64,000 bases of DNA from Buxus sempervirens (Eukaryota; Streptophyta; Magnoliopsida; Buxales; Buxaceae). The translations under genes and the position numbers were made by a program. The DNA lies in NCBI GenBank assembly GCA_947561395.2, contig OX387193.1, positions 3,844,001-3,908,000 of the forward strand. Reading direction: 5' to 3'. Under the pieces are notes generated by a model. It saw only the letters and a list, made by a program, of their open reading frames with translations. It was not told where the DNA came from and did not search any database. This document shows positions 15,248 to 46,280 of this stretch, piece after piece. Numbering within the stretch: the stretch's first letter is position 1; every line of letters begins with the position of its first letter.

Positions 15248-15565
15248 TTGTGTTTTGGTTGTTTTTAGAGGACTCAAAATTCCTTTGTTTCTTGTGTGGG
15301 AAGAATAGTCCCACATTGGAAATTTACTGAAACCTCATTGTGTTAATATAGGATGGTGAGAACTAAAGGGGTGCAACCCCTAAAGTGAGACATTGTTCCT
15401 TTGTAGACACCCCAAATTGCACTACCAAATGAGAAAATAATAAAAACATGTTGTAGACACCCCCAAATTGCACCCCAATATAAGAGATTAACTAAGAAGG
15501 GCTCCAAAGGTCTCATTTGAGCCTTGACATATGTCAAACTTTCAAAAACTTTCAAAAACAGTGCC

Positions 15566-15831
15566 AACCGCACTGTGTATGCGGTTTTTATAATTTCGGT
15601 GTAAACCGCTCTGTATGTGCGGTTGCAACCGCACAGACAGCACGGTTCAGGTCCTTGCTTGTCGCGCTGGCGGCCACGTGGCTTCAAGAAGCTTCGGCCG
15701 TTAGGCCGCGTGTCCAGCACTCGATTAAAGCATAACTGAATTGAACCGTTCTGTATATGCGGTTTAGTCAATTTTGTATTAAACCGCACTTTGAGTGGCG
15801 GTTCTGTGGAAACCGCACTGAGTATACGGTT
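15566..15831 (+). promoter_or_regulatory. Six AACCG-N11-CGGTT dyads in U3 (5' LTR)
   Basis: Sites 15566-15586, 15604-15624, 15627-15647, 15744-15764, 15782-15803 and 15811-15831. Five are exactly 21 bp and one is 22 bp. The central 11 bp follow the directional pattern NNCTGNRTRTG. The cluster ends about 200 bp upstream of the TATA box. A binding site for a dimeric protein is inferred. Confidence 0.85.
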
Positions 15832-16031
15832 TTGGCTGTTTCAAGGCTTTGCGAAATGGCTCGATCTCTGAGCCTTATTTACGCATATTACCTCTCTCTC
15901 AGGGACTTGAACTCCCTATTTCACCCTCCGAAACTTGCTGAATTACACCAATTCATGCCTTGGAGGAGAATTGGAATAATCTAGAAGGCCTTTTTGGCCT
16001 ACCCTTGGGACTCTTCTACCCTTGACTTGGC

Positions 16032-16039
16032 CTATAAAT
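16032..16039 (+). promoter_or_regulatory. TATA box of the 5' LTR
   Basis: ctataaatagaga about 580 bp into the LTR; the same motif is in the 3' LTR near 37130. This is the probable start region of the genomic RNA. Confidence 0.75.
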
Positions 16040-17641
16040 AGAGAGGCCCTCCTCTTGCAAATGGCTGACAATCTGAAGCTTAGAAGCTCTGCAAGAAGAA
16101 GGAGAACCTCTGCTGGATTGGCTACTCAACTGCTCAAGCTACTAAGGTAAGGCCTATTTGAGATACTGCTTCCCTTTTACATTCTAGCAAAATCTCTCAT
16201 CTTCTACCTTTCTGTAGTGTAAGGCCTGTGTGTATTCTTGCAACCCCAAACCCCTTCTAAAGTACCTGGGAATCCTCTCTAGCCGTAAAACGTGAAGAGA
16301 GAGCCTGGGGAAAAAGAAGGTGGAATGGATCCTCTAGGCTTAGAACCCTCAAATGATGAAAAGCATACTATATGGTTATTTTGAGCCCTTGAATGCTTCT
16401 CTGATTATTTTTATATTTGGAGAAGATGTGAATCCATGCTCTCTACAGCTATGGATTCTAACTTTCTCATAGAAATATGATTTTCCACATCTTTGCACCC
16501 ACTTTTCACTACTTTCATCAAATAGGCTAGATCTTGGATTTCCATATAACATATGAAAAATCTGAGATCATTGGCCTTAGAATGAGTTTTTAGAAGTTCA
16601 TGAGTTGTTTTTCATGATTTTAAATGGTTTTGGTCGAATCCACTTGCACACATACACTGATTTTGGCTTCTTATTCAAAGTTCTTCAAAAACAGGACAGA
16701 TCTGTATCCTGTCTTGGAATGCTCATAACTTCATCCTCCGGATGAATTTTTGAGTGATTCCAAAGACATGTGATAGATTGGGAGGTCTATTTAATATCTG
16801 GAAATTTTCGTCCATTTCCATGTAGCCAATTTTTGACACCATCTCTTCAAAGTTTGTAGGACAGTTCAGCCCAGATTGCTGAACTTGTCGCTTTGATAGT
16901 GCACTATTTGCTCGGTTTTAATCCGTTTCCTATGATTCCAATTTCTGAGTTTTCTTTAAGAAGTCTATTTTCATTTCCAACAAGTTTCAGCTGATTTCAA
17001 TCTGATTTGTGCCTTGGGTGCTCAGTTGACTCAGAGGTGCTCGCTGGCATGGTCCAGAGCTAATCTGTGGTCTTCTAGGCCTGTTCAAGAGAGCACACAA
17101 GTCACATCCGGATAGAGATTGATGTGAGGTTTTTTTCTTTGGAAAGATGTCACTACATACTTCCTCCATACCAATTTTCAGGGATTTTTATTGAGCCAAA
17201 CTCCATGAATAGAGCTTTGAAAATGCCTACTTAACACTTTTTCTGAGTTATAACAGCAAATTTCATATGTGGATTTCTCTCTCGTGTTGAATCGGATTGA
17301 GCTGAATTTTTTACTGTATACTCTACTATATACCAGTTTTCAAATGGCTTTGGTTTCATTTGATTTAGATTTAAACTGAATGAGTTATGGTTTATCAAAG
17401 CTTTCAAGCTCTTTTGACCGAATTTCTCCAGATTTGCCTTGGCTTGATTTTCTTCATTTTTACTTCGATTTCACTTCACTCATGAAGTTTTAGAAGTGAT
17501 GAATCCACAAAGAGAGTCTAAACTCATTAGACTTCTCATGTGGAATGGTCACACACATTGTGCTTGTTAAGCACCTTTTTGTTAATTTTACTAGCAAACA
17601 ATTTATAGCATAAGCAAGCATGTGGTAACCGTCTTAGACGG

Positions 17642-17676
17642 ATGAGTGGGGGTGCCTAACACCTTCCCCCGCTCAT
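17642..17676 (+). other. U5 stem-loop of the 5' LTR
   Basis: Arms ATGAGTGGGGG and CCCCCGCTCAT (11 bp including one U-G) around loop tgcctaacacctt. The arms covary between LTR families while the loop is nearly constant. The 3' LTR copy is 38740-38774. Confidence 0.8.
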
Positions 17677-17864
17677 AAATAATTCCCCGTACCCAATCTC
17701 TGGATTTTTCCATATATTAGAGCTACTTTGGCTTTATTTGGCTTTTATGAACCCGTTGGTGTCCATTCACACCCTTAAGATGGATGGTGGCGACTCTTAT
17801 TCTTATCGATCCCCGCGTGACGATATAGGAGGTCATCATAGATGACATTTCCATGTCTCACAAC

Positions 17865-17882
17865 TGGCGACTCTGCTGGGGA
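17865..17882 (+). other. Primer binding site, tRNA-Arg type
   Basis: TGGCGACTCTGCTGGGGA begins 2 bp after the LTR end. It is complementary to the 3' end of a tRNA ending TCCCCAGCAGAGTCGCCA, which from memory fits plant tRNA-Arg. The gag-only element uses the same 18 bases. Confidence 0.8.
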
Positions 17883-19471
17883 GTTTTGTGGAATTGAGCC
17901 ATTGTTGTGTGCTTAGCATGTTGGATTGCTTTTATTTGATTGTTTGCTGTTTGGCTTGTTTAAGAAGCATGCTGATCTGAATGCCTTTGTTTTAGAGAGA
18001 ATGCAAGACCCATGGAAATATGGCATGTGATGTGTGTATGCCTTAATTATGTTTAGAACCATGCTTAGGAAGGCCTAACTAGTCTTAGCATGCTAGGTTG
18101 CCATATTTTCATGATAAGCATGCTTTGATTAGAGCTTTGATGTCATGAGCATGAGATCTGAATTTTTTGAGAGATGTTTTGACTATGTTAAGCATGCTCA
18201 CCATAATTAAATGTTATTTTTGTATAACATGATAACATGCTTTCATGTTTGTATGATTGGGTGAATGCATGTTTAGATTGAGCATGCTAGGTTTTTTATT
18301 ACCTTGATATTTTCATGTTTATCTATCACAAATGATCTCTATATCATGCCTTGGTTGTTTTTGGATTGTGCTTGCATGGCTACGAAAAAAAGAGTGGCAA
18401 GGGTGGGACGTTGTGTTGAATGTGACCCATCTTGTTCAAATGCACTTGTGCACCTTTTTATTTTTTTACACAGCCTACCTATCACCTATAGGAAGTTGAA
18501 CAAGAATGTGTGTAGCTTGGCGCACCGAGGTCGTTACTTCGGAAAGCGAAAGTGAAAACATTCACCTTAGAAGCTTTGAGCCAATGATGTGATGACATGG
18601 TGGATCTAGAATTCTGGTCATACACTAGGCTTGAGCTCTAAGTTGCCAATAAGCCAAAACCCAAAACCCCCACGCTTGAAGGTGGAGAAACACGTTTTTG
18701 GCCAAAGTAAACCAAATACGATGGGAAAAGGGTTTGTATTGAGGGAAGGCCGTCTTGCATGGCTCAGGTGGTCCAAGGCATGATATGGACACCATTTGGA
18801 AGGTAAACATGAGGTAACAAGGTAATGTAAGCCTATTATTTGTGGTAACATCTTTACTTTGTAAATATCAAGCTCATGTTGGCCATTTGTGGGGATCTTG
18901 TTATTCCCAGAAATTTGTTGTTATCCTAGGATTGGTGTAGCCCTTAGAGAGAGTTTTTACTCTTCTTATGTGTCGTTCTACCCCAAATGTCCATAGGAGG
19001 CACCTAAAAGTCCCGAAATCCATGCATTGGGTGTCCATTTTGGGGAGGGAACCTAGGCCCTCCTATGTATGAATATTACTAATCCTTTGTTTTGCAGGAA
19101 ATTGGTGTGGAGAACACCCTGGAGCTGCTGGTACAAAGGGATTTTTCCTTTTTAGTTTAAAAATTCTCATTCTCAAGCCCAAAGAGGCTAAAATTGTAAT
19201 TTTATTTTGATTCATGCCCTTGAAGGCCAATTTGTATTGTAACATGTTTCTTTTATCATAAGAAGTCTGTTTGTGCATATTTTTGGTATCCCCATGCAAT
19301 CTCATGAAATTCAAGGGTTAAACGGGCCTTTAATGCCATTTGATATGTCAAGTGTCCAATTTGGGGCAGTCCAGAAGCCACCCAGTGGTGAACAGTGTGT
19401 TTGGGCAAGTAACCAAGCTAATAAAACCAATTGGAAGAGGAAACAATTCGAAAATCTGTTTTTCGGCTGAA

Positions 19472-19558
19472 AACCGTCCTGAGTATGCGGTTGTCTGCAT
19501 TTTCGCCGCAACCGCATGTATCATACGGTTTGAGCCAAACCGTCCTGAGTGTGCGGTT
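19472..19558 (+). promoter_or_regulatory. Three AACCG-N11-CGGTT dyads in the leader
   Basis: Sites 19472-19492, 19510-19530 and 19538-19558, all exactly 21 bp. They lie about 1.9 kb upstream of gag. Confidence 0.85.
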
Positions 19559-20309
19559 TTAAGCCGAAATCCATTTCTGGCCCTGCTAATTAAACATTTC
19601 GGGGTCCTTTTATCCCTAAGCCATATAAGCAAGTGGGCAGGTGGGCTAAATGAGATAAATGGCATATAAACTATCCCAAATCCACCCAAATCAAGAGATT
19701 AAGGTCATTTTTAACATTTTCACCCAAATTGAACAAATCAACTCAACTCAAAGGTGGAAATGATAAAATAAAGGTTGGCTCAAACCAAAAAACAGGTCAA
19801 ACACCTCAACTTGGGGGTTAAGTCCACATTGGGCCCTTTTTGTCCAATTTGACCGCTTAACCCATCTTAAGTGAAGTAAATGATTAAGAGAAAATTGGTT
19901 CAAATAACCAACCTAATCATACTTCAACCTCAAGAATTGAACTTGGAAATCACAATAAGCTTCCAAAGCATGTTTTAAGCCTAAAGTGGGATCTAAACCA
20001 AGAGTAAAAAGAAAAGAAGCTCAACTCTTTTGAAATAGAACAAATTCCAACCAAAAAAAAAAAAAGAAATATTTAAGCATAAAGTATTCAAACTTCTAAT
20101 ATTTCTTCCAAAGAGCAATTTATGGGTCACTTGGAAACCTTTGAATTCCAAGCAAATAATCATTGCCAAAATCAAGTGAAAGAAAATTTTGAATAAATCA
20201 TCTCCTTTAAGGGCAATTTGAGTCTCTTTTTAACTCAAAAACGCCTAAGGGGAAATCAAAAATATTTTAGGCATCTGAAAGCCTTGGAATTTCAGAAAAT
20301 CAAATCATA

Positions 20310-20775
20310 GGACCCTGGAAGCCTGAAATTCCAGACTTTTTCAAAAACCTCATAGGCCTTCTAAAGCCTGAATTTAGAAACTCATAGGACTCCTGGAAGC
20401 CTGAAATTCCAGACTTTTTCAAAATCTTCATAGGCCTTCTAAAGCCTGAATTTAGAAACTCATAGGACTCCTGGAAGCCTGAAATTCCAGACTTTTTCAA
20501 AACCTCATAGGCCTTCTAAAGCCTGAATTTAGAAACTCATAGGACTCCTGGAAGCCTGAAATTCCAGACTTTTTCAAAATCTTCATAGGCCTTCTAAAGC
20601 CTGAATTTAGAAACTCATAGGACTCCTGGAAGCCTGAAATTCCAGACTTTTTCAAAATCTTCATAGGCCTTCTAAAGCCTGAATTTAGAAACTCATAGGA
20701 CTCCTGGAAGCCTGAAATTCCAGACTTTTTCAAAATCTTCATAGGCCTTCTAAAGCCTGAATGTAATTTCAGGAG
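20310..20775 (+). repeat. Six-unit 78-bp tandem array in the leader
   Basis: ctggaagcctgaaattcc starts at about 20315, 20393, 20471, 20548, 20626 and 20704. Units are nearly identical (78 bp, one of 77). Because 78 is divisible by 3, the minus strand shows repetitive open frames; these are not taken as genes. Tandem arrays in untranslated regions are known for Tat elements. Confidence 0.92.
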
Positions 20776-21405
20776 GTTGTGGAAGCCTCAATTCCAACTT
20801 TGGTCGGTCTTTTTCGTACCAACCAACTCATAGGCCCTTGAAAGCCTGCGTAATTTCAAGAGGTTGTGGAAGCCTTAATTCCAAAGCATAAGCCCTTGGA
20901 AGCTTGCGTAATTCCAATTCTTGATTTGTCTATAGGCTTTTACTATAGGCACATCATCTTTTGTGGGATATGTTGGAAGCCCTAGAATTTTCCAATATTG
21001 GTGGGTCTTTTTCGCACCAACCAATTCATAAGCCCTTGGAAGCTTGCGTGATTCCAAGTCTTGATTTGTCTACAGGCTTTTACTGTAGGCACATCATCTT
21101 TTGTGGGACATGTGGGAGGCCCTAGAATACTCCTACAAAATTTCTAAGATTTGATCTTTTTCGTATCAATCACCTCATCTTAATAAGGTTATGTTAACCA
21201 TAAATACAAAAATCAAAAAATATGAATGCAAAAAAACCCCCAAACTCATGTTCACCAAGCCTACATGCACGCATGCATAGGTGTGTAAAGTTGATTGGAT
21301 GGGACACTAACATTTTTTCTTTTTTCTTCTTCTTTTTTACTAAGGCACTAAGTTCCTACTGCAACCATTGCTCCCCGACGTTCTCAAAGATTAAAAGCTG
21401 CTACC

Positions 21406-24400
21406 ATGAACCCTGCTGAAGAACAATCTACTGTTTCGGCTGAGGCCTTTGCTCAACTGCAAGAACAAGTGGCAGGGATGACCAAACTACTGGAGAATTT
21501 GCTGGCCAACCAAGCCGCTCAGGCTCAGGTGCAGGCGCAACAGGCGCAGGCTCAGGTTCACCAAGCTTCATCATCCCACAATGCACCACCACAGGCTCCA
21601 CCCCAGACTGAACTTCCACCACAAATCCAACCTATCCCACCTCAACCTGAACCCTCTCATCCAAACCCCGAGCCTATCCTGATCCGGGAGGAGGAATCTG
21701 AATGTGAGAAGGAAAAGGGAAAAGAAAAAGAGAGACTGAGGGTAGAAGTAGAGAGAAAATTTTTGGACAAACTGGAGTCCATTCAGGAGGAATTGAAAGA
21801 AGTCAGGGGGATCAACACGTTGGGTGGTACCAACTTCCAAGATCTCTGCCTGTACCCCGATGCATGCTTACCGGCCAAATTTAAGTGCCCGGACTTTGAA
21901 AAATATGACGGCACCGGATGCCCAATGAGCCATCTGAAGCTCTACTGTGGGGCGTTATGCCAATTTGGCCGGGATGATGGCATCCTGATCCAGCTATTCC
22001 AGAGAAGCCTAACTGGGGCAGCCTTGAGATGGTTCGCAACTGTGGACCATGGCAGAATCAGAAGGTGGAAGGACCTAGCTGATGCTTTCCTTGCTCAGTA
22101 CCGTTTCAATGCTGACATCGTGCCAGATAGGTACGATATGATGAAAATGAGTAAGGGAAGAGATGAGACAGTTAGGCAGTATGCCAAAAGGTGGAGAGAA
22201 GCCGCCTCTCAAGTCAGGCCTCCCATGATGGAGCCAGAGATGGTTACCACCTTCATTGGCACATTGGGGCATCCATTTTACAATCATTTGGTGGGTCAGG
22301 TTACCACCAGTTTCGCTGCCCTAGTACTGGTCGCGGACCGGATTGAAGATGGAATCAGATCCGGACGAATTCACGACCATTCTGCCACAGCTCGTCAGCA
22401 GGAGCCCACTTTTGATCCTTCTGCCCAGAAGCAGAAAAATGGGGCAAGAAGGAATGGAGGAAAGAAAGAAGGGGAGGTAAACATGGTACAACCCCAACCA
22501 CCACAAAAACCCATCCAAATCAATATTGCTGCACCTCCACCCAGTCCGGTGCAGCCACAATCGACCTATCAAAACCCTCTCAACATTAATGTTCCTCAGG
22601 CAGCAATGCCCAACCAAAAAAGGGTATTCTCAAAAGAGGAGAGAGACGCTTGGATGGCGTCCAGAAGAAGCAGGGTCCTTTCCCCTCTTCCTGTGACACC
22701 ATCCCAACTTTTGCCATCTTTGTTAAACGCAGGGTATGTCACCCTGAAAGAACCAAATCCGAATGCTTCAAAGGGAAAGAATTTCGATCCCTCCACCACC
22801 TGTGAATACCATATGGGTGCACCAGGACACCCTACAGACAGGTGCTGGCCATTAAAACACGCCATTCAAGATTTGATCGATCAGGGAACCCTGTTGTTTA
22901 ACACAGCTGCACCCTCTCCCACCAGGACTGACATTGGTCAGAATCCTCTGCCCCAGCATAATGGGGCTGGTCATTCCAATTTCGTAGGGACCATCTCTTC
23001 TAGACCTAGGACGTTCGATCCCTCGCAGTTAATTGCGCCAATAGGGACGTCCGTTAAGGTCTATTTTGACCAGGAAGGGATAGAGGAACAAATCAACGTT
23101 ATTTCTGGAAATAATGGAAATGGCAAGACTGCAGAGGACATTAATGCCTCTCTAAACCGGGCCGCCTCTCTCATGGCCCAGCTTAATGTAGCCAAACCCC
23201 CTCTCATTATTAATTGCAACCAGGCTGTTGCTTCCCCCACTACTCCATCACCCAAACCATCTTTGGTCATTAATTATGACCCCACCACTGCTTCAATTAC
23301 GTCTGTTTCTTCTCAGACCTTAAGATCCTCTCAACCTAAGGCACCAAGGCAATCTTCGCCTCTGGTTATTGAGGTGCCTTCTTCTAACCTTATTCCTACA
23401 TCAGCTCCTGCACCTAGGTCCCACCTCCAACCCTTGGTATTTAACGTGCCTAAACCCTCTTATTCAGAAACCGCTGTACCTTGGAACTACAGCGAGGGTT
23501 ATACGACCACTATCCCAGTGGCCGGGAATCAAGGTCAGGAGGAGGTAAACCTCATGACAAGATCAGGGAGGTGTGTAGAAGGAAAAGAACAAGAAATGAA
23601 AGAGGCAGAGCAAGTCCAGAAGGGGAAGGCCAAAATAGGGGAAGACACCCCTCAGGTCGACAATAAGGAGGCAGAGGATCTCCTAAAAATACTGAAAAAG
23701 AGTGAATTCAATATTGTTGACCAACTAACCAGGGTCCCTGCCCAGATATCAATACTGGGATTATTGCTTAATTCAGAAAAGCATAGGGACTCATTAATGA
23801 AGGTACTCCAGAGCGCCCATGTGCCCAAAACAATTGAGCCAGACCAGCTCGGCACGATGATCGGCCAGATCCTATCTCACAATGTAATAAGCTTTTCAGA
23901 AAGCGAGATAAGCCCTGTTGGAGGCTATCACATGGACCCTTTGCACATCACTGTGCTCTGTAAGGGTAGCATGATAGCCAGGGTCCTAATCGACAATGGG
24001 TCGGCCTTAAACGTCTGCCCCCTTGTAACATGTGTGAGACTTGGTTTGGACCAATCCAAGATAAAGCAAAACGGGAGGGTGGTAAGAGCTTTCGATAGCT
24101 CCAAAACACACTCCCTGGGAGAGATTGAATTACCGATTACCATCGGACCGAATATCTTTAATATTACATTCGAAGTGATAGATATTCCGGCTGCCTTCAA
24201 TCTACTTCTGGGAAGGCCGTGGATCCACTCAGCTAGGGCTATACCCTCTACTCTTCATCAAAGAGTAAAATTTATAAGAGGCCAAAGGGTAATAACGGTC
24301 CTAGCAGAGAACCTAGTCCCTCCTGTCATACCACCTGACGTACCTTTCATTAATGTAGAATTAACGGCGGACAAAATTGCTTTTCACTCTTTTCAGTTCG

Positions 24401-25179
24401 AAACAGTCAACTTCATACCTGGGGGGTGTCAAAAGAAAGAGAGGTTGACCTGCGCCAATAAGATGGTGGAGAAAGTTTTAAAGGATTGCAATTTCCACCC
24501 AGGAAAGGGGTTGGGCATTAACCTGCAAGGAAGGGTGAAGCCCATAGAGGCACAGAGGCTGGTCCCACAGGTGGGACTGGGGATGAAAATGAGAAGATGG
24601 AAGAGGGGATCACGGAAAGAAAATGAGAGGGGAAAGAATCAAGAAAAGTTCCCTCATTTAAGGGAAACTTTCCCGAGGCCCTCTCATACCATTCAATTGG
24701 CTCCTCCTACAGATTCCTCCAAGCCTCCGTATTTCAATGACAACCCTTTTAGAAAGCCTTATACCTCAACCCTTCAACCTTTTATCCCCCTCTCATCCAC
24801 TTTGACGCCTGAAGCCACGGGTGAGCCTGAGCCACTGCCACAAGAGCAGCAGGATTTCACAGAAGAGACAGGGGCATTCTTTGCAATGACAGAGAATGAA
24901 GGAAGAGATAAAGCAGAAGAAGAAGTTCCTTTTATCGACTGGGCCTCAATCAAGATTCCTGATGAGGTCACCTCGGAACTCAGCCCCGAAGCAGAAAAGG
25001 GCAGTTTTTCAAATCCGGTAATGATGGTATCGGATCGAGAGTTTGAGGAGGAACGGGTTTGCACTATACCACCTGTTCCAGAGGGCTTTGTATTGAAAAA
25101 TTGGGAAGAGACCCCCTTGACATTTGAGGCTGCATATGGTTGGCAATCAGCTGCGGCCTCCAAAAAAAAACTCCATTAG
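21406..25179 (+). CDS. Gag-protease polyprotein of the 23.5-kb Tat element
   Basis: 1257 residues starting MNPAEEQ, the first ATG after the leader. A Gln/Pro-rich coiled N-terminus precedes the Retrotrans_gag domain (about 157-330: LIQLFQRSLTGAALRWF, YAKRWREAA). A zinc-knuckle-like CX2HX5HX4C motif (CEYHMGAPGHPTDRC) lies near 465. The aspartic protease has active site DNGS near 861 (LIDNGSALNVCP), in place of the usual DTG/DSG. A G-patch-like segment (HPGKGLGINLQG) follows at about 1018-1068. The ORF ends 10 bp after an A9 run that leads into the -1 pol frame. Gag forms the particle and protease processes the polyprotein. The closest relative in the window is the gag at 48861-50441. Confidence 0.95.
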   Translation: MNPAEEQSTVSAEAFAQLQEQVAGMTKLLENLLANQAAQAQVQAQQAQAQVHQASSSHNAPPQAPPQTELPPQIQPIPPQPEPSHPNPEPILIREEESECEKEKGKEKERLRVEVERKFLDKLESIQEELKEVRGINTLGGTNFQDLCLYPDACLPAKFKCPDFEKYDGTGCPMSHLKLYCGALCQFGRDDGILIQLFQRSLTGAALRWFATVDHGRIRRWKDLADAFLAQYRFNADIVPDRYDMMKMSKGRDETVRQYAKRWREAASQVRPPMMEPEMVTTFIGTLGHPFYNHLVGQVTTSFAALVLVADRIEDGIRSGRIHDHSATARQQEPTFDPSAQKQKNGARRNGGKKEGEVNMVQPQPPQKPIQINIAAPPPSPVQPQSTYQNPLNINVPQAAMPNQKRVFSKEERDAWMASRRSRVLSPLPVTPSQLLPSLLNAGYVTLKEPNPNASKGKNFDPSTTCEYHMGAPGHPTDRCWPLKHAIQDLIDQGTLLFNTAAPSPTRTDIGQNPLPQHNGAGHSNFVGTISSRPRTFDPSQLIAPIGTSVKVYFDQEGIEEQINVISGNNGNGKTAEDINASLNRAASLMAQLNVAKPPLIINCNQAVASPTTPSPKPSLVINYDPTTASITSVSSQTLRSSQPKAPRQSSPLVIEVPSSNLIPTSAPAPRSHLQPLVFNVPKPSYSETAVPWNYSEGYTTTIPVAGNQGQEEVNLMTRSGRCVEGKEQEMKEAEQVQKGKAKIGEDTPQVDNKEAEDLLKILKKSEFNIVDQLTRVPAQISILGLLLNSEKHRDSLMKVLQSAHVPKTIEPDQLGTMIGQILSHNVISFSESEISPVGGYHMDPLHITVLCKGSMIARVLIDNGSALNVCPLVTCVRLGLDQSKIKQNGRVVRAFDSSKTHSLGEIELPITIGPNIFNITFEVIDIPAAFNLLLGRPWIHSARAIPSTLHQRVKFIRGQRVITVLAENLVPPVIPPDVPFINVELTADKIAFHSFQFETVNFIPGGCQKKERLTCANKMVEKVLKDCNFHPGKGLGINLQGRVKPIEAQRLVPQVGLGMKMRRWKRGSRKENERGKNQEKFPHLRETFPRPSHTIQLAPPTDSSKPPYFNDNPFRKPYTSTLQPFIPLSSTLTPEATGEPEPLPQEQQDFTEETGAFFAMTENEGRDKAEEEVPFIDWASIKIPDEVTSELSPEAEKGSFSNPVMMVSDREFEEERVCTIPPVPEGFVLKNWEETPLTFEAAYGWQSAAASKKKLH

Positions 25180-28763: not shown

Positions 28764-29810
28764 AGGAATATCACAAGGAAATGATCCGAGGCCATTTTTC
28801 TTCCTCCCTCACAAATTCTAATATCCCTAGTTTAAACCAAGTTGAGCCTGTTCGTGTTTTAAAGAACCCAAACTGGAGCTTACAGTCGCGAATGAAGCAG
28901 GGTTAATAGAAAAACAAAAAGGGAAATAGAAAAGAAAGGCCAAAAGAAAAAAAAACAGAAGGCCAATATTGGGAATGGGGGGTCGCATCCATTATGACTG
29001 TAAGCCCAGTTGTCCCATTTTCAAGATGTTAAAATATTGAGCCTATAATAACTTTTTTTCATAAACCCAGCCCAGCCTTCATTTCGTCCTATCGATCAAG
29101 TCCTCGGTGATCTGGGTGTATTCCTTCAGGCTCGGGATGTTGAAAGGGCAATGACGGAATAAAACAGGCCGGTCCTAGTGAAAACCGTAACAGGCACTAG
29201 GGGCAATATTGGCAGAAAGAAGGCGAAAGAAAAAAGAGAATAAAAGAAAAGGAAGAAACAGGAAAAAGGTCACCAACCGTACTTGGGATACAGATTGAAC
29301 CAAACCGCCCTTTTTCTACGGTTTTGGCAGAAGGGCTATGCAACCGCATACTAAAGACGGTTTTGGCTAAACCGTTCTGAATACGCGGTTTTGCGCAGCA
29401 GAAGTGAATTGAGCAGATTTTCTGCACAGGACTGAACCAGAAGGCTGGGGCAAGCCCCTGAAAGTGGGAAGGAAACTTGGGGATGAGTCTAAGGGTTCCA
29501 AGGGGGATGGATTGGCTTCCTCCTCATTAACTGAAATACCCTTTTTGCCCAACTTACTTCAATTCGTCCAACTATATGGGATTAAAGCATTATGGACCAA
29601 TTTACAATAAAAACACACAAAAATAAAAACTATATTTTGGCCAATGATGAGAAATCAGTGACTTTTCATTAAAACTGTCAGTTTTTACAAGCATATGAGA
29701 GTTCTGAGGCCAATAGTATAAAAACCTACTTTGTATTCTCTATCTTTCCACTAGTGGAGTTTCTCTTTGTACAGAAGTGTAAAAAAGGAAAAAAAATACA
29801 ATGAAAGGGG
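28764..29810 (+). other. Spacer between pol and the antisense genes
   Basis: No gene is seen. It contains purine-rich AAAAGAAAGG stretches and the dyad cluster 29303-29390. Confidence 0.6.
29303..29390 (+). promoter_or_regulatory. Three AACCG-N11-CGGTT dyads after pol
   Basis: Sites 29303-29323, 29342-29362 and 29370-29390, all 21 bp. They lie 540 bp after the pol stop and 420 bp beyond the 3' end of antisense gene A. Confidence 0.85.
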
Positions 29811-30020
29811 CTAATCTCTATCCCCTAGCCTCTCCTCAAGCTCTCTGATCCGAGCCGCCTGAACCGCCACAAGCCTTTCAGCCCCCTCTGCATCTGGGTC
29901 ACTGAGGAATGAGATGACGTCATCGGAGAGAGTCTGCCTGGTCCTCAAATCTCTGAGCCTGGCCATGGTCTCGTCATGCCTGCGCCATGCAGCTCTCACC
30001 TCGAAGCGACGGGCCTGTAT
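29811..30020 (-). pseudogene. In-frame continuation of antisense gene A after the TAG stop
   Basis: 69 codons in the same frame as exon 2, rich in Arg, Glu and Leu in heptad-like spacing and ending at a natural stop. Its open frame and composition match the preceding coiled coil, supporting a recent nonsense mutation of gene A. Confidence 0.6.
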
Positions 30021-31465
30021 CTACTCTGATAATCGCCGCTCCAGGTCTTCTTTCTCCAACCTCAAAGTGCGGGCCTCCTCCACCCATATGAGCTGAAGCC
30101 GCCTATGAGAAGCCCGCTCGGTCTCCAAGAGGTCCTCATAAGTAGGACACGGGATAGCGGGAGGATCAGCCGGTACAGAGGCACAGCTTTGCACCTGCTC
30201 CCTAATCCAAAGGAGATAGTCCTTCTCATGTAATTTGGAGAAGACGGGACCTCTCAAAAGGCAGGCCTGCGACCATTCCTTCAATAGGCGGAAGCAGAGG
30301 CCCATGGTGGCTGGTGTGAGCGGACCTATGAGCTCTTCATATCCCTGAGGTACTAGGATCCCCTGCACCTCCTCTCCAAACTGCCGGATGACCCTCAAAG
30401 GCAAATAGAGCAAGGCAGACCTCAAGCCCATGAGCACAGCGAAGTTTCGGTCAGAGAAGCTGATCACTGTCTCAACGGAGGGCTGGTAAGCACCGGGCCA
30501 TCTCACCTGGTCATCCTGAAGAGTCCCCAAGAAAGCAAACCATCCCTGTTTGCCGCCATGTATATTGGGACACCCCCTGTTGCTCATCAAAACAGGAACG
30601 TCCAATCTGGGGAAGAAGCGCCGGGTTATCTCTTCAACTTGACTCAGGTGGTCAAGTAACCAGAGCTGCACAAAACAGGGAAGCATTTCCAACCTTAGAA
30701 AATTTCAACATGGCAATAATAATTACAATTCAAGGAAAGAGATTCAAATTTTACCTGAAGTATAGGGGCGCAGGCAAGGAAACTTTTCTGCTTCCTGTGA
30801 TAGCAGTCAGTCAAGGCCTGGTATATTTCAGCCAGGATCATAGGGGCAAGCCTTTCGCGCTCCCTAACTTGGCAAATGACTGAAATGAGGGATAAATCAA
30901 CCTCGCTATCACCTCGGGGGAATAAAAGTTGATTGACCACTATCAAGGTCAAAGCATTGAACCGGGCCGACCGGTTTAGGCTATTCAACAGCTTTTCAGT
31001 CAAAAATGACTTTGATAGGGTCAATAAAGCGTCGGCTTCCCCTAACTCTTTCTTGTTAATCCCCAAAAAGGTGGAGGCTTCCTTTTTGAAGCTCGGTTTG
31101 AGAGGTGGGTTAACTACTTTCTTAGAAAAACTAAGGTTGAGGATGGTTTCAACCTCCTCGACTGTAGGGGTCATCTCTTTTTCCCCAAACCTGAAGAGGT
31201 TCAATTGAGGCTCCCAATGCCCAATTAGTGCCTCTATGATTTCCCATTTTAGAGGAATCTTTGGGATTGAAAGGAGGTGGCCTAGATTGGCGGAGGCCCA
31301 ATCCATCTCATCTTGAGGGGTCATTGAAGAGACCCACCTCTCATAGAATGTATCTACTATGGCATACCTAGTCAAATTAGGAGGTTTGGACCTAATTTTT
31401 GGTCTAGGTGCTGATATTTCAGGTACAGAAGATGAAGAAGGCACAGAAGCTGAACCAGAAGCCAT
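30021..31465 (-). CDS. Antisense gene A: DUF7745-like protein with coiled-coil tail
   Basis: Two exons on the minus strand: 31465-30755 (237 codons) and 30665-30021, joined in phase 0 by GT (CTTCAG|GTAAAA) and AG (GTGCAG|CTCTGG). The product is 451 residues, starting MASGSASVPSSSS. Residues about 30-230 resemble the plant DUF7745 family often found near Tat-type elements (HWEPQLNLF, FGEKEMTPTVEEVETIL). The C-terminus is a charged coiled coil. After the TAG at 30023-30021 the same frame runs on to 29811 with more coiled coil (RIRELEERLG), so the stop looks like a nonsense change; the original product was probably about 520 residues. Function is unknown. The family name is from memory of the motif, not a search. 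Confidence 0.72.
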
Positions 31466-31540
31466 TAATGGGCAAAAGTGGATTAAAGGCAGCTAGGAGA
31501 GAGAAAATCGCCGAAACAGGGGGTTTCTGACCTAAGCAAT

Positions 31541-31555
31541 ACGTCAAAATGACGT
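31541..31555. promoter_or_regulatory. Inverted TGACGT pair upstream of antisense gene A
   Basis: ACGTCA-AAA-TGACGT is a perfect palindrome 76 bp upstream of the gene A start codon. TGACG is the core of plant as-1/bZIP (TGA factor) sites, so this may be a promoter element. Binding is inferred. Confidence 0.45.
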
Positions 31556-31596
31556 CCTGCCCGCAATTCGCGGTTTTAAAATAACCTAAGGGCAAA

Positions 31597-31714
31597 AACC
31601 GCATACACAGAACGGTTGTGTCTAAACCGCACTTAATATGCGGTTGCATTCCCGCAAAGTTTAAAAACCGCGGGTTAGGTACGGTTCTTGCACAACCGCC
31701 CTGAATGTACGGTT
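31597..31714 (-). promoter_or_regulatory. Four AACCG-N11-CGGTT dyads upstream of antisense gene A
   Basis: Sites 31597-31617, 31625-31645, 31666-31686 and 31694-31714, all 21 bp. They lie 130-250 bp upstream of the gene A start and 225-340 bp downstream of the gene B stop. Confidence 0.85.
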
Positions 31715-31939
31715 TTTGCACAAAAAAGGGGTTTTCTTCTTTCTTTTAATAAGTCATGTTCCCAGCACACCTGTTACCTGTATAAACACTTGTAACATGA
31801 CAAATATACAAAAATAAACAAAAATATACAAAAAAGGAAACAAAACCAAAAAAATCTTCTCTTTTCATATAAACTGTCAATGGATACATCAAGTTTATAT
31901 ACAAATATCTGATAAATCCTAAATCCTATCTCTAACAGG

Positions 31940-34744
31940 TCAATCCCTATCGCCTCTACCTCGCCGTCGCTGCCGGATGAAAAAGTGATCTGAGAAGCGC
32001 TGACTAGCAGGAGATGAAGGCTCACCAAGCGAGGATGGACCAGCAGGAGCCACCGGGTCTGCAGGAGGCGCAGGATAGGTAGAAGAGGCTGAAGCTGGAG
32101 CGGGATCACCCCGGGTCAGGTCCATGAAGCATGAAACTGAAGAGTCTGTCGCCAAGGGAACCAGCTCCAGAACCCGAGATTCCTCGACCGGAGGAGATGG
32201 ATCTGCTATGCCGGGAACATCATCCTCTCTCATAGGCTCGGCCACCTCTGGATCTGCTACGCCGGGAACATCCTCTGCTCTCGTAGGTCCGACCGCCTCA
32301 TAAACCACAGGAATCTCCGATCCACCCTCCGCTGGCTCAAGAGCAGTCTCCGGCTCAGATGAAGGAGCAGTCTCAGATATAGGCGCGGCCTCGGGCATCT
32401 CGGCCGACTCAGGAACTACACCAGCAGAAGTAGCCTCGGCCGCCACCTCGCTCTCTCTCTCCGGGATCTCTATATCTCCTAAAGAGAAGGACAAAGTGCG
32501 GGAACTGGATGGTGAAGCCGCCACATCCTCCTGAAAGGCAAAAACAGATTGATCAGAAGCAGAAAAGATAAAATAAAATACAGAAACTGGAAAAGACAGA
32601 CCTGAGCTCCTGAAGGTCCCGCCTGACCCTGGGCACTGGCCAACTGAGCCCGCAAGTCAGCAATGAGAGCGGCCTGCCCAGTAATGATGACATCGCTCTC
32701 AGCAATGGCGGCGTCCCTCTCAGCCAGCTGGCGCTCCAGATCCGCGTATCGAGCCCGGACCTCCTCCAGCTGTGCCTCCTGAAATGAGATAAGAAAAGAA
32801 AAGATATCAGTAAATAAGAAAGGAAGACTAAAAGACTGCATAAGGAAAGGAGGTTCATACCGTGGTGTCATAGAGGCGGATCACTACCCCCCCTATCTCA
32901 GTAACTCCACCTCGAACGGGCATGGGCTGCATCAGACAACCCACTGAGACCTGCCCGAACCAGGTATCATAGTCACCATCAACTAGAAGGCCATCTCCTG
33001 CCTCCCACTCGCCGAAATGGGCAGGGTCGAATGGACCAGGAAGGATGAAAGGGGCTGTAGCTGGAGGAGCCACTGGGATCCGGAGCTCGCCAGTATGCTG
33101 GAAGAAAAATCGCTCGCCGAGGTACCATATACTACCCAACTGCCCAATGAAGAATGGGTACCTCTGGCGCCGCTGATCCAGGGCGAAAGCGTCATCCACG
33201 AAGGGCTGAAAAGCCAGCTCGTCATGCAAGCCGTCAAGACGGGGGACAGATAGCTGAGAGTGAACAAAGAAGAATATCAGAATCTGATAAAAAGGAGAAA
33301 AGGAAATGAAGAAAAGAGAGACGGGAAAAATGCTTACCTCTCTCCTGAAGGTCCTGTCCAGGTGAGCCCTGGCCGACCTAGGGCGACTCTTCTCTGAGTC
33401 ACGCCTAATCTGATTCCACCGGCGGGCCAAGGGAAATGTCCCCTCAGACAAAGTGGAGGTAGGGCGAAAGTGGGCCACATAGACCCGAGCAAAGAACTGA
33501 AAAGAAAAAAAAAGAAGAGAAAAAAAAAAAAGAAAAAAAGAGGTTAAGCAGAAAAAAGAAGAGAAAAAAAAAAGAAAAAAAGAGAAAAGAAAGGAAAGGA
33601 AGAAGAAAAGAATTCATACCTGCAGAAAGGGCCAGAAAAATCTGCAACCTACCCCGGCTCCCCTGGGAGAAGACAAGCCGGAGACCACTCGTCGAAGGCC
33701 AGCTAGCAAGGTGCCATAGACAAGCTGGCCCCAAGCGTAGTCCCTCGCTCGGTGCAAATCCCGGAGAAGACTCAGGAAATGGGGGCTGACTGAAGTAGTA
33801 TCCTCCAAGCAGAAGCAGGAGCCCATCATCAGAAGAAAGAGAAACCGGAAAGCTATCGGGAAGCTGGGATGATCCGCTGCTAGGGTACTGAATCCCCTCT
33901 CTATAAAAGCCTTCCTCAACCAGGTCCGGGAAATACGAGTGATCCTGCTCCGATCCCACGCCTCCACGGGCATCTCATCATATCCTAACAGCTCGGCAAT
34001 CTCCAAGTCCGCCGGCCGATCCATCTCAGTGATGACATCTCCAGTCATCCTGACCCCGGTAATGAGAGCAAAGTCGGAGGGTCGAATGCCTATCTCCACA
34101 TCAGGCAGGTGAAAGCTCAGGGTCTCCGGGAAAAAGCGCTCCAATAAAGCCAAGATCAAAGGCCAATCCTGACGAACGCCGGTGATAGTGATAAAAGGGC
34201 CAAATCCAAAACGGCCCATCTCTCGGCGCAGAGAAGACGAGCAAGCCCCTACAACATCAGCAAAAAGGGCCCAGCTCCCTCGGAAATGAGAAGAAGGATA
34301 TCTAAGGGGGATGTCTGCCCTGACGCCTGCCGAAGGATGCGTCGTCAAACTACTAAGAAGAGAGGTATCCCGGATCTGATCTGCTATCTCTGCAGGAATG
34401 GCGACGCGAGTCGCCCGGGCTCCTGCCCTACCTCTACGACGGGCTCCCCTACGCTCACGGACCTCACCAGCAGGCTAGAAAGGCGAATAATAAGGGTTTA
34501 AAGTTGAATGCGATAAAAGAAAGGCCGGATGTTAAAAAGGAAAAGGGAATACCTCTGGAATCGACTCCAGCGAATCCCCAGACGCCCCAGAGTCTGAATC
34601 TGAAAGCTCCAGACCACTGGGAGAAGAAGGCTCAGGGTCTGGCTCGGCCCTAGAGGAAGAAGCCACATCGGCCGGATCCCTCCGAACCCTCGAAGATGAA
34701 GGCTCATCTGCGGGACCCCGAGAAGCGCGACGTGTACGGGCCAT
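31940..34744 (-). CDS. Antisense gene B: plant mobile domain (PMD) protein
   Basis: Six exons on the minus strand, all GT-AG and all phase 0: 34744-34553, 34474-33620, 33496-33338, 33253-32861, 32778-32602, 32530-31940; 788 residues in total. The N-terminus is Arg/Ser/Pro-rich. A PMD-like region spans about 155-480: FHLPDVEIGIRPSDFALITG (185-204), then the FLSLLRDL...YAWGQLVYGTLL block, then FFARVYVAHFRP. Exon 5 encodes a coiled coil (EVRARYADLERQLAERDA). The tail is acidic, Pro/Ser-rich and ends basic (RQRRRGRGDRD). PMD proteins such as MAIN/MAIL1 act in gene and transposon silencing and genome stability, and PMDs occur in several transposon families. All reading frames are intact, suggesting selection for function. 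A nuclear regulatory role is inferred. Confidence 0.78.
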
Positions 34745-36109
34745 CTACAAGACCAATTGCAGGGAGAAATTTATAATGTTTTATTGGAAATCATTTTATT
34801 CACTTTCAGTTAATTTTTCTTTAGACTAATCAATTCTACTTGATTTCCTTTTCTTTACTTCCTTATTATTATATATCCTTCTTATAAAAAAAAAAAAAAA
34901 GGGAAAGAGAAATTTTTTTTTGTTTTAGCAAGCTATTCAGGATTTTCAATTCATTTTCAAATTTAGAATTCTGATAAGTTTAATGACCGCCTAAAATCCC
35001 TAAAATATCAAATTTGTTCTACTTTCAGGCGTACTCAGGGCAAAGCAGCATTAAGGATGGTCAAGGCAGGAGCTGCCTATGCCTATATATGCTAGAGATG
35101 TTGGATGAAGCTTTTAAAAGTACAAGAACACATGCTCAAATTTAGTACAGTTGAACACAACGATTCGACATTACTAAGGCAAGCCTACAGGTTTTCAATC
35201 CAAGTAAAAATCAGGCATTGAGTTGCATTGGCTACAAATTGGAATAAGCCTGGAAGCATGAATAAGAGCAAACTGCATGCTACTTGAGATCGAGTAAGCC
35301 AAGAGTCATTTCAAGCATACAAAAGCATGTTCTTTGTAATGGGGTGAGCACGTCAAGTGTTGCATTGCCGCAGAAAAGAAATCCTCGGGTTGATGAAAAG
35401 CAAGTATTCAACAAAAAAATAATAATCAAATTGAACAAACAGGAGTATAGCAATCAAGAAAAAAAAACAAGCATGGTGAAATAAGGTTTCAGTTAAAGGT
35501 AAAACAATACAGGCCAAGGTCCAGTACAAACTGATTCAAGAAATGGGCAAGTACAAGGTTTGGGGATTTTATTCGGTTAGGAGCAAATTTGAAATCAAGA
35601 GTTCAGTTCAATCAATAATCAGAATTAAAATCATGCTAGGAACAAGCTCATTCAAGCAACAAACACATGCACAGATTTTCGGATCGCATATTTGCAAGAA
35701 AGAAATGTGTTCGGCCACCTACTTGTTCTGGTCGAAAAGAGAAGACCTTGCAATGTTTGTTTCGCCGGAGATTCAAGAGCAAACGATCACCAGCACCGAG
35801 GATGGGAGATGACTCAATATTGGTGGGCGCCCGTAAGTGAGAAACCACAAGCAGAATGGAGTGAGCTCTAGATGGAAGAGAGTCGCTACAACAGTCCACC
35901 GGAAGAGAGTGAAGAACCACCAGAAAAAGAAGACGTCGCCAGAAAGGATGAGCTCGCCGGAGGAAGAGTGATCTCACCGGAGGAGAAGAAGAGAAGACCG
36001 GAGCGAAACCACGGTCGCCAGAGGAAAAAGATGAGTTCGGGAGTTCGAGAGTTTTGCGAAGGCAGAGTGAGGAACCGCGGTCGCGGTCTCGGTTATATGA
36101 AACCTAGAA
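34745..36109 (-). other. Probable 5' region of antisense gene B
   Basis: No assignable gene. On the minus strand, 35800-36060 has the pyrimidine-rich look (CTCTTCCTCCGG) of a plant 5' UTR. The transcript of gene B may therefore start near 36.05 kb, with an intron before 34744. A small plus-strand frame at 35872-36135 (87 codons, highly charged) is probably the shadow of this. Confidence 0.35.
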
Positions 36110-36208
36110 AACCGCACACACAGAGCGGTTGGTAATAATATTGGTAAAAACCGCACATACAGCACGGTTGAAATTGAAAATGCTAAAAACCGCATGTTCA
36201 GTACGGTT
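36110..36208 (-). promoter_or_regulatory. Three AACCG-N11-CGGTT dyads upstream of antisense gene B
   Basis: Sites 36110-36130, 36149-36169 and 36188-36208, all 21 bp, with a 22-bp variant at 36073-36094. The asymmetric centre (NNCTGNRTRTG) reads on the minus strand in all three, in the direction of gene B. Confidence 0.85.
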
Positions 36209-36537
36209 GGCACCCAAAAATGAATTTTCAAAACTTTTTCAATCTCTCTCAAAGGATCTATGTCCAAGGCAGTTGTGAATTGCAAGAAACACCATCCTAC
36301 CAACTTTTGCTTTTAAAATTTGCTCAAATCTCACTTCATAGCCACGAGTGCTCCGTGAGAGGCGAGGAGAGGATTTGACCCTTAAGGTTAGGGACTTTTC
36401 ATCAAATCCTTGAAACAAATTCTTTTTCAAAAACCATATTGGAGTTCTTGCAGCTCATAATCAAATGGACATGATCCTGAGAGGTGCAATTTGCGGGTCT
36501 TTTGCTCTCCGCTGCCAATTGATTCCAATCACAGCGA

Positions 36538-36549
36538 AGAGGGGGCAGT
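36538..36549 (+). other. Polypurine tract of the 23.5-kb element
   Basis: gaagagggggcagt directly precedes the TG of the 3' LTR. It is the expected primer site for plus-strand DNA synthesis. Confidence 0.8.
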
Positions 36550-38960
36550 TGTAAACACCCCCAAATTGCACCCCAATATAAGAGATTAACTAAGAAGGGC
36601 TCCAAAGGTCTCATTTGAGCCTTGACATATGTCAAACTTTCAAAAACTTTCAAAAACAGTGCCAACCGCACTGTGTATGCGGTTTTTATAATTTCGGTGT
36701 AAACCGCTCTGTATGTGCGGTTGCAACCGCACAGACAGCACGGTTCAGGTCCTTGCTTGTCGCGCTGGCGACCACGTGGCTTCAAGAAGCTTCGGCCGTT
36801 AGGCCGCGTGTCCAGCACTCGATTAAAGCATAACTGAATTGAACCGTTCTGTATATGCGGTTTAGTCAATTTTGTATTAAACCGCACTTTGAGTGGCGGT
36901 TCTGTGGAAACCGCACTGAGTATACGGTTTTGGCTGTTTCAAGGCTTTGCGAAATGGCTCGATCTCTGAGCCTTATTTACGCATATTACCTCTCTCTCAG
37001 GGACTTGAACTCCCTATTTCACCCTCCGAAACTTGCTGAATTACACCAATTCATGCCTTGGAGGAGAATTGGAATAATCTAGAAGGCCTTTTTGGCCTAC
37101 CCTTGGGACTCTTCTACCCTTGACTTGGCCTATAAATAGAGAGGCCCTCCTCTTGCAAATGGCTGACAATCTGAAGCTTAGAAGCTCTGCAAGAAGAAGG
37201 AGAACCTCTGCTGGATTGGCTACTCAACTGCTCAAGCTACTAAGGTAAGGCCTATTTGAGATACTGCTTCCCTTTTACATTCTAGCAAAATCTCTCATCT
37301 TCTACCTTTCTGTAGTGTAAGGCCTGTGTGTATTCTTGCAACCCCAAACCCCTTCTAAAGTACCTGGGAATCCTCTCTAGCCGTAAAACGTGAAGAGAGA
37401 GCCTGGGGAAAAAGAAGGTGGAATGGATCCTCTAGGCTTAGAACCCTCAAATGATGAAAAGCATACTATATGGTTATTTTGAGCCCTTGAATGCTTCTCT
37501 GATTATTTTTATATTTGGAGAAGATGTGAATCCATGCTCTCTACAGCTATGGATTCTAACTTTCTCATAGAAATATGATTTTCCACATCTTTGCACCCAC
37601 TTTTCACTACTTTCATCAAATAGGCTAGATCTTGGATTTCCATATAAAATATGAAAAATCTGAGATCATTGGCCTTAGAATGAGTTTTTAGAAGTTCATG
37701 AGTTGTTTTTCATGATTTTAAATGGTTTTGGTCGAATCCACTTGCACACATACACTGATTTTGGCTTCTTATTCAAAGTTCTTCAAAAACAGGACAGATC
37801 TGTATCCTGTCTTGGAATGCTCATAACTTCATCCTCCGGATGAATTTTTGAGTGATTCCAAAGACATGTGATAGATTGGGAGGTCTATTTAATATCTGGA
37901 AATTTTCGTTCATTTCCATGTAGCCAATTTTTGACACCATCTCTTCAAAGTTTGTAGGACAGTTCAGCCCAGATTGCTGAACTTGTCGCTTTGATAGTGC
38001 ACTATTTGCTCGGTTTTAATCCGTTTCCTATGATTCCAATTTCTGAGTTTTCTTTAAGAAGTCTATTTTCATTTCCAACAAGTTTCAGCTGATTTCAATC
38101 TGATTTGTGCCTTGGGTGCTCAGTTGACTCAGAGGTGCTCGCTGGCATGGTCCAGAGCTAATCTGTGGTCTTCTAGGCCTGTTCAAGAGAGCACACAAGT
38201 CACATCCGGATAGAGATTGATGTGAGGTTTTTTTCTTTGGAAAGATGTCACTACATACTTCCTCCATACCAACTTTCAGGGATTTTTATTGAGCCAAACT
38301 CCATGAATAGAGCTTTGAAAATGCCTACTTAACACTTTTTCTGAGTTATAACAGCAAATTTCATATGTGGATTTCTCTCTCGTGTTGAATCGGATTGAGC
38401 TGAATTTTTTACTGTATACTCTACTATATACCAGTTTTCAAATGGCTTTGGTTTCATTTGATTTAGATTTAAACTGAATGAGTTATGGTTTATCAAAGCT
38501 TTCAAGCTCTTTTGACCGAATTTCTCCAGATTTGCCTTGGCTTGATTTTCTTCATTTTTACTTCGATTTCACTTCACTCATGAAGTTTTAGAAGTGATGA
38601 ATCCACAAAGAGAGTCTAAACTCATTAGACTTCTCATGTGGAATGGTCACACACATTGTGCTTGTTAAGCACCTTTTTGTTAATTTTACTAGCAAACAAT
38701 TTATAGCATAAGCAAGCATGTGGTAACCGTCTTAGACGGATGAGTGGGGGTGCCTAACACCTTCCCCCGCTCATAAATAATTCCCCGTACCCAATCTCTG
38801 GATTTTTCCATATATTAGAGCTACTTTGGCTCTATTTGGCTTTTATGAACCCGTTGGTGTCCATTCACACCCTTAAGATGGATGGTGGCGACTCTTATTC
38901 TTATCGATCCCCGCGTGACGATATAGGAGGTCATCATAGATGACATTTCCATGTCTCACA
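36550..38960 (+). repeat. 3' LTR of the 23.5-kb element
   Basis: 2411 bp, colinear with the 5' LTR with about six substitutions (for example GTAGAC/GTAAAC at the start and GGCTTTA/GGCTCTA near the end). Dyads recur at 36664-36929, the TATA box near 37130 and the U5 stem-loop at 38740-38774. Confidence 0.95.
36664..36929 (+). promoter_or_regulatory. Six AACCG-N11-CGGTT dyads in the 3' LTR
   Basis: Same six sites as in the 5' LTR, shifted by 21098 bp, with all half-sites conserved. Confidence 0.85.
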
Positions 38961-42772: not shown

Positions 42773-42910
42773 ATCCGGTATGTCAGACCGGATAACAAAG
42801 GGCCTTAAGGTATCCGGTACATGGTACCGGATACACTAAGGCTCACATGTATCCGGTATGAGTATCCGGATACAGGAAGGAGTACTTGTATCCGGATTGA
42901 GTATCCGGAT
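42773..42910 (-). promoter_or_regulatory. Four ATCCGG-N9-CCGGAT dyads in LTR copy 3
   Basis: Sites 42773-42793, 42812-42832, 42851-42871 and 42890-42910. All are 21 bp and their starts are spaced exactly 39 bp apart. Confidence 0.88.
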
Positions 42911-46264: not shown

Positions 46265-46280
46265 GCTGCCCCTCTTTGCC
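46265..46280 (-). other. Polypurine tract of the gag-only element
   Basis: On the minus strand ggcaaagaggggcagc runs directly into the TG of the 3' LTR, the usual place for the plus-strand primer. Confidence 0.75.

Follow-up and report, generated by a model that had tools for sequence, protein, structure and literature searches.

Which protein, if any, reads the dyad AACCG-N11-CGGTT that recurs in clusters along a retrotransposon of Buxus sempervirens, and to what effect? The element, here called E1, is a Tat/Ogre-type Ty3/gypsy long terminal repeat (LTR) retrotransposon in a 64,000-nucleotide stretch of contig OX387193.1 (assembly GCA_947561395.2, positions 3,844,001 to 3,908,000), referred to below as the window. 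Comparison of element copies supports strong selection on the half-sites and on their spacing. Comparison between families shows the AACCG dyad to be one case of a wider scheme, CCG-N11-CGG, in which the outer letters vary by family, being AA in E1, AT in a sister family and GC in a third. We think it somewhat probable that the arrays serve as operators for an element-encoded, dimeric, sequence-specific regulator, likeliest a family's own protein of the plant mobile domain (PMD) type, which would activate or de-silence its own family.

An initial annotation of the window had listed 25 sites in six clusters (6, 3, 3, 4, 3 and 6 sites; Table 1), and a pattern scan recovered all of them in the same places. 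Its division into 24 sites of 21 bp and one of 22 bp has to be corrected to 23 and two, the longer sites at 15782 and 36880 being LTR twins. All 23 exact 21-bp copies in the window fall within 15566-36929. A third 22-bp match (AACCG-N12-CGGTT), at 36073, is a 26th match outside the six clusters. As the annotation had held, the dyad is beyond chance: 100 dinucleotide shuffles of the window yielded a mean of 0.03 and a maximum of one match. Among spacings of 0-20, only 7 (one match), 11 (23) and 12 (three) were found in the window, where sites that depart from the ten half-site letters at a single position are absent; two-mismatch sites number 14, two inside E1 and 12 elsewhere. The centre is indeed directional, with one orientation outscoring the other at 17 of the 18 distinct sites, in some cases by just one or two letters, and a tie at the remaining site, under a scoring pattern derived from these very sites. 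Their oriented consensus is AACCG-Y-N-C-T-G-W-R-T-R-T-R-CGGTT at most positions, position 6 always being C or T and position 16 always G or A, and centres occur in both orientations within the E1 arrays. The proposal that the half-sites share one face of the DNA fails on simple arithmetic, as their centres are 16 bp, or about 1.5 turns, apart.

The dyad had been taken for a feature of one retrotransposon. Across the 676.5-Mb assembly, which includes the window, AACCG-N11-CGGTT occurs 19,195 times (letters-reversed control, 1691), and it is present in the sister family and in relatives of E2, the third-family element of the window, as well. AACCG-N10-CGGTT occurs 184 times (reversed control, 1467); this genome-wide spacing control, made for the AACCG code alone, extends the length constraint beyond E1, as the annotation had anticipated. 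ATCCG-N11-CGGAT and GCCCG-N11-CGGGC were counted 48,312 and 17,547 times (reversed controls, 292 and 1289), which brings the three codes to 85,054 sites. Chance or composition as the origin of the dyads is ruled out by the shuffles and by the N11 versus N10 counts. In a 298-kb sequence sample, gathered round AA sites and hence with an inflated AA share, CCG-N-CGG with fully paired outer letters was found 151 times at N11, 12 times at N12 and 0-5 times at N5-N10 and N13-N17, and the outer letters were AA, AT, GC or GA in 149 of the 151 N11 sites. A reversed-sequence control for an all-dyad scan was discarded, reversal preserving dyads, and spacing controls were used instead.

Neighbouring sites are themselves phased. 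Among 129 neighbour distances of at most 130 bp (one mismatch allowed in the outer letters), 45 measure 27-28 bp, 46 measure 38-39 bp and six measure 23 bp. Base-exact spacing and neighbour steps one helical turn apart suit DNA, and it is very improbable that the dyads act as RNA, that is, as short hairpins in transcripts serving packaging, splicing or small-RNA recognition. Each dyad could form a five-base-pair stem, and the leader and U3 arrays would be transcribed, but positions 6/16 need no pairing (25 of the 72 distinct sites have C opposite A) and positions 7/15 are nearly free.

A survey of 20 stretches of 10 kb round AACCG sites, from the first 7 Mb of contig 1, bore out the expected coincidence with the E1 family in part: eight stretches hold E1-family LTRs, but two hold a sister-family leader, eight an E2-related LTR, and two (L006 and L012) are unassigned. 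Two of the nine E1-family LTR copies in the survey are merely 70% identical. In L006 and L012, dyads of the type AACCGTTTCC..TTT lie at L006:4630-4931 and L012:4522-4542, in sequence assigned to no Tat element.

Selection on the dyads was assessed against E1 in copies selected through their genes, irrespective of the motif. From 5566 candidate aORF1 matches (aORF1 and aORF2 are the two antisense genes of E1), 148 were scored; 20 of these supplied promoters, and a second set, which overlaps the first in part, supplied the other arrays. The compared copies comprised 19 of 20 for the aORF1 promoter (L033 was dropped, its promoter not being homologous), seven of ten for the aORF2 promoter (eight were homologous and one partial copy was dropped), ten of ten for the 3' spacer, six of eight for the leader and seven of eight for the 3' LTR. 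Half-site letters were changed in 16 of 1870 comparisons, centres in 192 of 2064 and flanks in 1581 of 17,896; the copies share ancestry, so these changes are not independent events. Half-sites are thus about ten-fold more resistant to change than flanks, CpGs included: half-site CpGs were changed in 7 of 508 cases versus 68 of 750 for other CpGs, a contrast that is small in the aORF1 promoter alone (5/304 versus 8/378). In nine LTR copies of greater divergence, retrieved from around the motif, the differences from E1 amount to 5.2% in half-sites, 28.0% in centres, 32.1% in the sequence between sites and 24.0% in the rest of 520 bp. For families 2 and 3, three comparisons gave 1/150, 0/60 and 10/215 changes in half-sites and 92/1538, 39/471 and 613/3733 in flanks. 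The 22-bp site (15782/36880) is still 22 bp long in seven of the nine diverged LTR copies and in all seven gene-picked 3' LTR copies, and its extra base is therefore tolerated; it reads 21 bp in two outlying LTR copies.

These rates also bear on the idea that tandem duplication made the arrays as a mutational artefact and that they merely persist. Target motifs of the anti-silencing protein VANC do spread via tandem repeats in VANDAL transposons, according to the part of that account available to us (PMC5735166). In the present elements, however, centres and linkers of sites within one element are on average just 46-64% and 33-54% alike (half-sites are identical by selection of sites), and with change in half-sites some ten-fold rarer than in flanks, CpGs included, we regard such an origin as hardly credible.

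The letter codes emerge from comparison of families. The sister element g (C1:3441494-3464309; LTRs of 2271 bp, 100% identical) shares 89% identity with E1 in pol, 68% in gag, 66-71% in aORF1 and 53% in exon 2 of aORF2. It carries 17 ATCCG-N11-CGGAT sites, four in each LTR, three in the leader, four upstream of aORF1 and two upstream of aORF2, at locations that match five of the six E1 arrays (those in the LTRs, in the leader and ahead of each antisense gene); a counterpart of the E1 array at 29303-29390 was not found in g. Steps within the g arrays are 39 bp in 11 of 12 cases and 38 bp in one. Outer letters are AA in 23 of 23 sites of E1 and AT in 17 of 18 sites of g. The window itself contains an LTR fragment of this sister family (Table 1). 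Two further ATCCG-N11-CGGAT arrays, with mostly 39-bp steps and a different centre, lie at L018:6511-7754 and perhaps mark a further family.

E2 and its relatives carry GCCCG-N11-CGGGC, mostly with inner TA..TA and most commonly in 28-bp steps (7 of 13 neighbour distances). With LTRs 99.7% identical and a gag ORF, but no match to E1 pol, E2 is apparently a young non-autonomous Tat element that has retained its own dyad code. Degenerate neighbours of AACCG/RACCG dyads were followed up in five E2 relatives, which are distant from the E1 family (L005, L008 and L013 were left out), and stand at 28-bp steps in L007, L011 and L015 and at 56 bp in L014 and L018; the thought that AACCG matches in E2 relatives are copy-amplified chance sites was set aside on these grounds. 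One aligned LTR position has GCCCG..CGGGC in E2 relatives and AACCG..CGGTC in L014. The related locus L005+L047 contains a distant DUF7745 gene, its product 26-33% identical to that of aORF1, with GCCCG sites 2.3-3.2 kb upstream. L015+L045+L046 (C1:4947000-4973999) form a family-3 element in which gag and pol are far apart and the LTR is apparently common to neighbouring elements; a hAT-like transposase gene, recognized by eye, is nested there.

Strict half-sites, exact spacing and phasing led us to propose a dimeric DNA-binding protein, and we favour one supplied by the element because related families, within one nucleus, keep the same geometry and use different letters. The initial annotation had suggested sites for a dimeric, perhaps element-encoded protein; selection on half-sites and spacing and the family-specific letters agree with this, but the motif is not private to the E1 family. 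Candidate readers are encoded by the antisense genes, both of which lie between pol and the 3' LTR and exceed the PF10536 cut-off of 34.9 bits. The aORF1 product matches PF24924 (DUF7745) with 78.7 bits and PF10536 (PMD) with 45 bits, and aORF2 exon 2 matches PF10536 with 56.1 bits. The layout of aORF2 comprises an acidic N-terminus, the PMD, a coiled-coil-like exon 5 (by eye) and an acidic, proline-rich C-terminus. dN/dS is low in both genes, at 0.10-0.16 for aORF1 against g and the related copy L023 (0.11-0.15 against L023) and 0.12 for aORF2 exon 2 against L023. For aORF2 exons 3-6, values against L023 (0.23, 1.24, 0.11 and 0.34) were not used, the frames being approximate; against g, with frames likewise approximate, exon 3 alone was alignable, at 51% identity. 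Divergence between E1 and its sister is greatest in aORF2, but this may reflect relaxed constraint, dS being saturated. A short gag match in L023 was likewise set aside.

From these sequence data we infer protein binding, a PMD protein as the binder, and activation or anti-silencing as the outcome. The reader would be first of all the aORF2 product, with its PMD, coiled-coil-like exon and acidic regions, perhaps together with that of aORF1. A PMD protein dimer would bind CCG-N11-CGG, with neighbouring dimers aligned at 28- or 39-bp steps, and the bound regulator would activate, or keep unsilenced, both the LTR promoter on the sense strand and the antisense promoters that drive its own genes. 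The result would be a self-sustaining, family-tuned switch, and elements lacking a PMD match of their own, such as E2, would depend on a helper. The first annotation's placement of arrays ahead of the LTR TATA box and ahead of the two antisense genes stands (array 1 sits 202-467 bp upstream of the TATA box at 16033), but no obvious promoter adjoins the arrays at 19472-19558 and 29303-29390.

An alternative is that the elements have hijacked a host dimeric factor, for example a DUO1-type R2R3-MYB, which drives them in a particular tissue, with families recruiting different paralogues. The arm TRCGGTT fits, by eye, six of the seven positions of the DUO1 consensus RRCSGTT as given in the accessible text of PMC6290024, and GCCCG sites stand beside AACCG- and GACCG-type sites in family-3 LTRs, which is what a single family of host factors acting on several elements would produce. 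Yet the ATCCG and GCCCG codes fall outside that consensus while sharing N11, the CCG core and the array steps with AACCG, and in one nucleus E1 is uniformly AA and its sister almost uniformly AT. We consider a hijacked host factor rather unlikely.

Several observations, the DUO1-like arm among them, weigh against an element-encoded PMD regulator. The one-family-one-code picture is not clean: g has one AACCG site (AACCGG..CCGGTT) 39 bp before its leader array and in 39-bp register with it, and the E2 relatives L007 and L015 hold a GCCCG array plus a mixed GACCG/AACCG array of 28-bp steps in one LTR. Such mixed arrays of family 3 blur the inference of an element-supplied reader, and mixed codes within one LTR strengthen the case for a host factor. 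Some stretches with AACCG-type dyads yielded no E1-type PMD gene, L006 and L012 (2 of the 20 surveyed loci) are unassigned, and E2 has sites but no PMD match, so that it would need a helper. Against the letters-reversed controls, enrichment is only 11-fold for AACCG-N11 and only 14-fold for GCCCG-N11. Three families provide the connection of PMD allele with letter code, and we know of no PMD protein with demonstrated DNA-binding activity. The dN/dS argument is weakened by stop codons in the L023 copies of both antisense genes and by the saturation or near-saturation of dS in the E1-g comparison. Single-exon AlphaFold models, built from two-row alignments, were poor (mean pLDDT 47.2 and 36.3). 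PDB sequence searches returned two matches at E 0.43 and 0.76 in one case and none in the other.

Host PMD proteins offer another route. The DOWN motif, linked to MAIN, MAIL1 and PP7L, is given as CATGCAGTTT in a figure legend (PMC7156037, PMC9899485), and ATGCAGTT is one base off the dyad arm ATGCGGTT. MAIN/MAIL1/PP7L-like proteins, or a partner factor, might thus read the half-sites, and the element PMD proteins might compete with or mimic them. The likeness to DOWN is weak, however, with 2.7% of random 10-mers matching the dyad equally well (1085/40,000; p about 0.027), and the ATCCG and GCCCG codes are left unexplained; we judge this pathway improbable as the reader. The MAIN/MAIL1/PP7L system resembles E1 in that PMD proteins are linked to a short promoter motif, but it consists of host genes and a single motif; in the portions of these papers available to us, no dyad is mentioned, PMD is not shown to recognize the motif, and whether MAIN and MAIL1 touch chromatin was not known (PMC9899485). 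A wider generalization, which we find doubtful, would make the PMD a sequence-specific DNA-reading module whose dimers read CCG-N11-CGG, with outer letters forming a family code that switches at almost every site of an element once the protein changes. Relatives that are not autonomous would then survive by wearing the code of their helper, and MAIN and MAIL1, domesticated in the host, would still read the half-site as the DOWN motif.

The nearest parallel appears to be the VANC systems (PMC5735166, PMC10398659), in which VANC acts as a sequence-specific anti-silencing protein of VANDALs (Hosaka et al. 2017, PMC5735166), although the E1 system is not a member. The VANC-like pattern noted in the initial annotation reappears as related families with different letters and the same geometry. 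As far as the available text of these papers goes, the systems share a dense short motif in non-coding regions, motif differences between related families and candidate reader proteins encoded by the element. VANDALs, however, belong to the MULE DNA transposons, and their 8-9 bp motifs share one orientation and lie in tandem repeats (PMC5735166, available sections), whereas E1 is a Ty3/gypsy element with gag-pol, a rigid 21-bp dyad in mixed orientation, mostly 28- or 39-bp steps and unlike linkers. The likeness is further limited by AA-type sites outside the E1 family. The antisense proteins of E1 match PMD/DUF7745, unlike VANC, a separation made by domain matches and not by alignment with VANC sequence. 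The Tax protein of HTLV is a retroviral transactivator that acts on repeated LTR sites through host CREB; repeated LTR sites and an element-encoded regulator (proposed in E1) are common to both, but Tax comes from animal retroviruses and works through a host protein.

The combination of extra PMD-type genes and an additional RNase H is also found in Ogre/Tat elements. PMD was reported in 57% of Ogre elements and PMD-A clades solely in Gypsy elements; the available parts of these accounts give neither a function nor cis sites (PMC6317226, PMC5418596), whereas the present elements connect such genes with conserved dyad arrays and with a change of letters between families. Full-text literature searches, with most subscription papers and all preprints outside their scope, returned no report of these dyads, and there is none in the accessible portions of the sunflower aORF paper, the sunflower methylation paper and a 2026 review. 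The comparison suggests that what is new here is the site scheme CCG-N11-CGG with outer letters differing between families. If the long-known Ogre/Tat PMD genes, which have no function in the text available of the accounts cited, read such sites, this role could be put to a direct test. Large LTR retrotransposons would then join the MULE transposons, hitherto the described case of self-recognition through coevolution of protein and target letters, and work on host PMD proteins such as MAIN and MAIL1 would gain a molecular lead. If a host factor reads the sites instead, they would still be an unusually strict regulatory operator carried genome-wide by retrotransposons.

E1 is a young element, its LTRs (2411 bp each) differing at six positions, and is flanked by the target-site duplication CATGT (15447-15451 and 38961-38965). 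The order of pol domains is RT_RNaseH (482-586), RVT_3 (640-758) and rve (925-1022). Because RVT_3, the additional RNase H, lies between RNase H and integrase and a PMD-type extra open reading frame (ORF) is present, we assign E1 to the Tat/Ogre lineage; an additional RNase H is described as a mark of the Tat clade in the text available of PMC6317226. The putative primer binding site (PBS) at the 5' LTR end reads TGGCGACTCTGCTGGGGA. A viral_contigs scan with pol found no relative.

Table 1 Coordinates of features in the window
Feature	Position	Strand	Remarks
E1, complete Tat/Ogre-type Ty3/gypsy LTR retrotransposon	15452..38960	+	LTRs, TG..CA ends, target-site duplication, domains
E1 5' LTR	15452..17862	+	TATAAATA (TATA box) at 16033
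Dyad array 1	15566..15831		5' LTR; six sites (15566, 15604, 15627, 15744, 15782 [22 bp], 15811)
Dyad array 2	19472..19558		leader, between PBS and gag; three sites
gag ORF	21352..25179	+	Retrotrans_gag, G-patch; domain search
pol ORF	25128..28763	+	RT, RNase H, additional RNase H (RVT_3), integrase; domain search
Dyad array 3	29303..29390		between pol and 3' end of aORF1; three sites
aORF1, antisense DUF7745/PMD protein	30021..31465	-	two inferred exons (31465-30755, 30665-30021); Pfam; exon limits by eye
Dyad array 4	31597..31714		just upstream of aORF1; four sites
aORF2, antisense PMD protein	31940..34744	-	six inferred exons; Pfam, exon translations
Dyad array 5	36110..36208		upstream of aORF2; three sites at 39-bp steps; 22-bp match 36073 nearby
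E1 3' LTR	36550..38960	+	
Dyad array 6	36664..36929		3' LTR; six sites; twin of array 1
ATCCG-N11-CGGAT array	42773..42910		LTR fragment of second (sister) family; four sites exactly 39 bp apart
E2, third family	43793..55629	-	gag found; LTRs with GCCCG-N11-CGGGC (45487-45663, 54852-55028; also 44355, 53720)

Between array 4 and the start of aORF1, a GACGTCATTTTGACGT stretch lies at 31541-31556, which we take to resemble a bZIP-type core. The E1 leader contains a tandem array of 78-bp units (20236-20816); repeats stand at the equivalent location in the sister element. E1 itself interrupts an older element (15401-15451 and 38960-40725), of which an inverted related copy at 401-2212 shows the uninterrupted sequence; each copy of this older element carries a single GCCCG-N11-CGGGC site, at 2088 and 39019.

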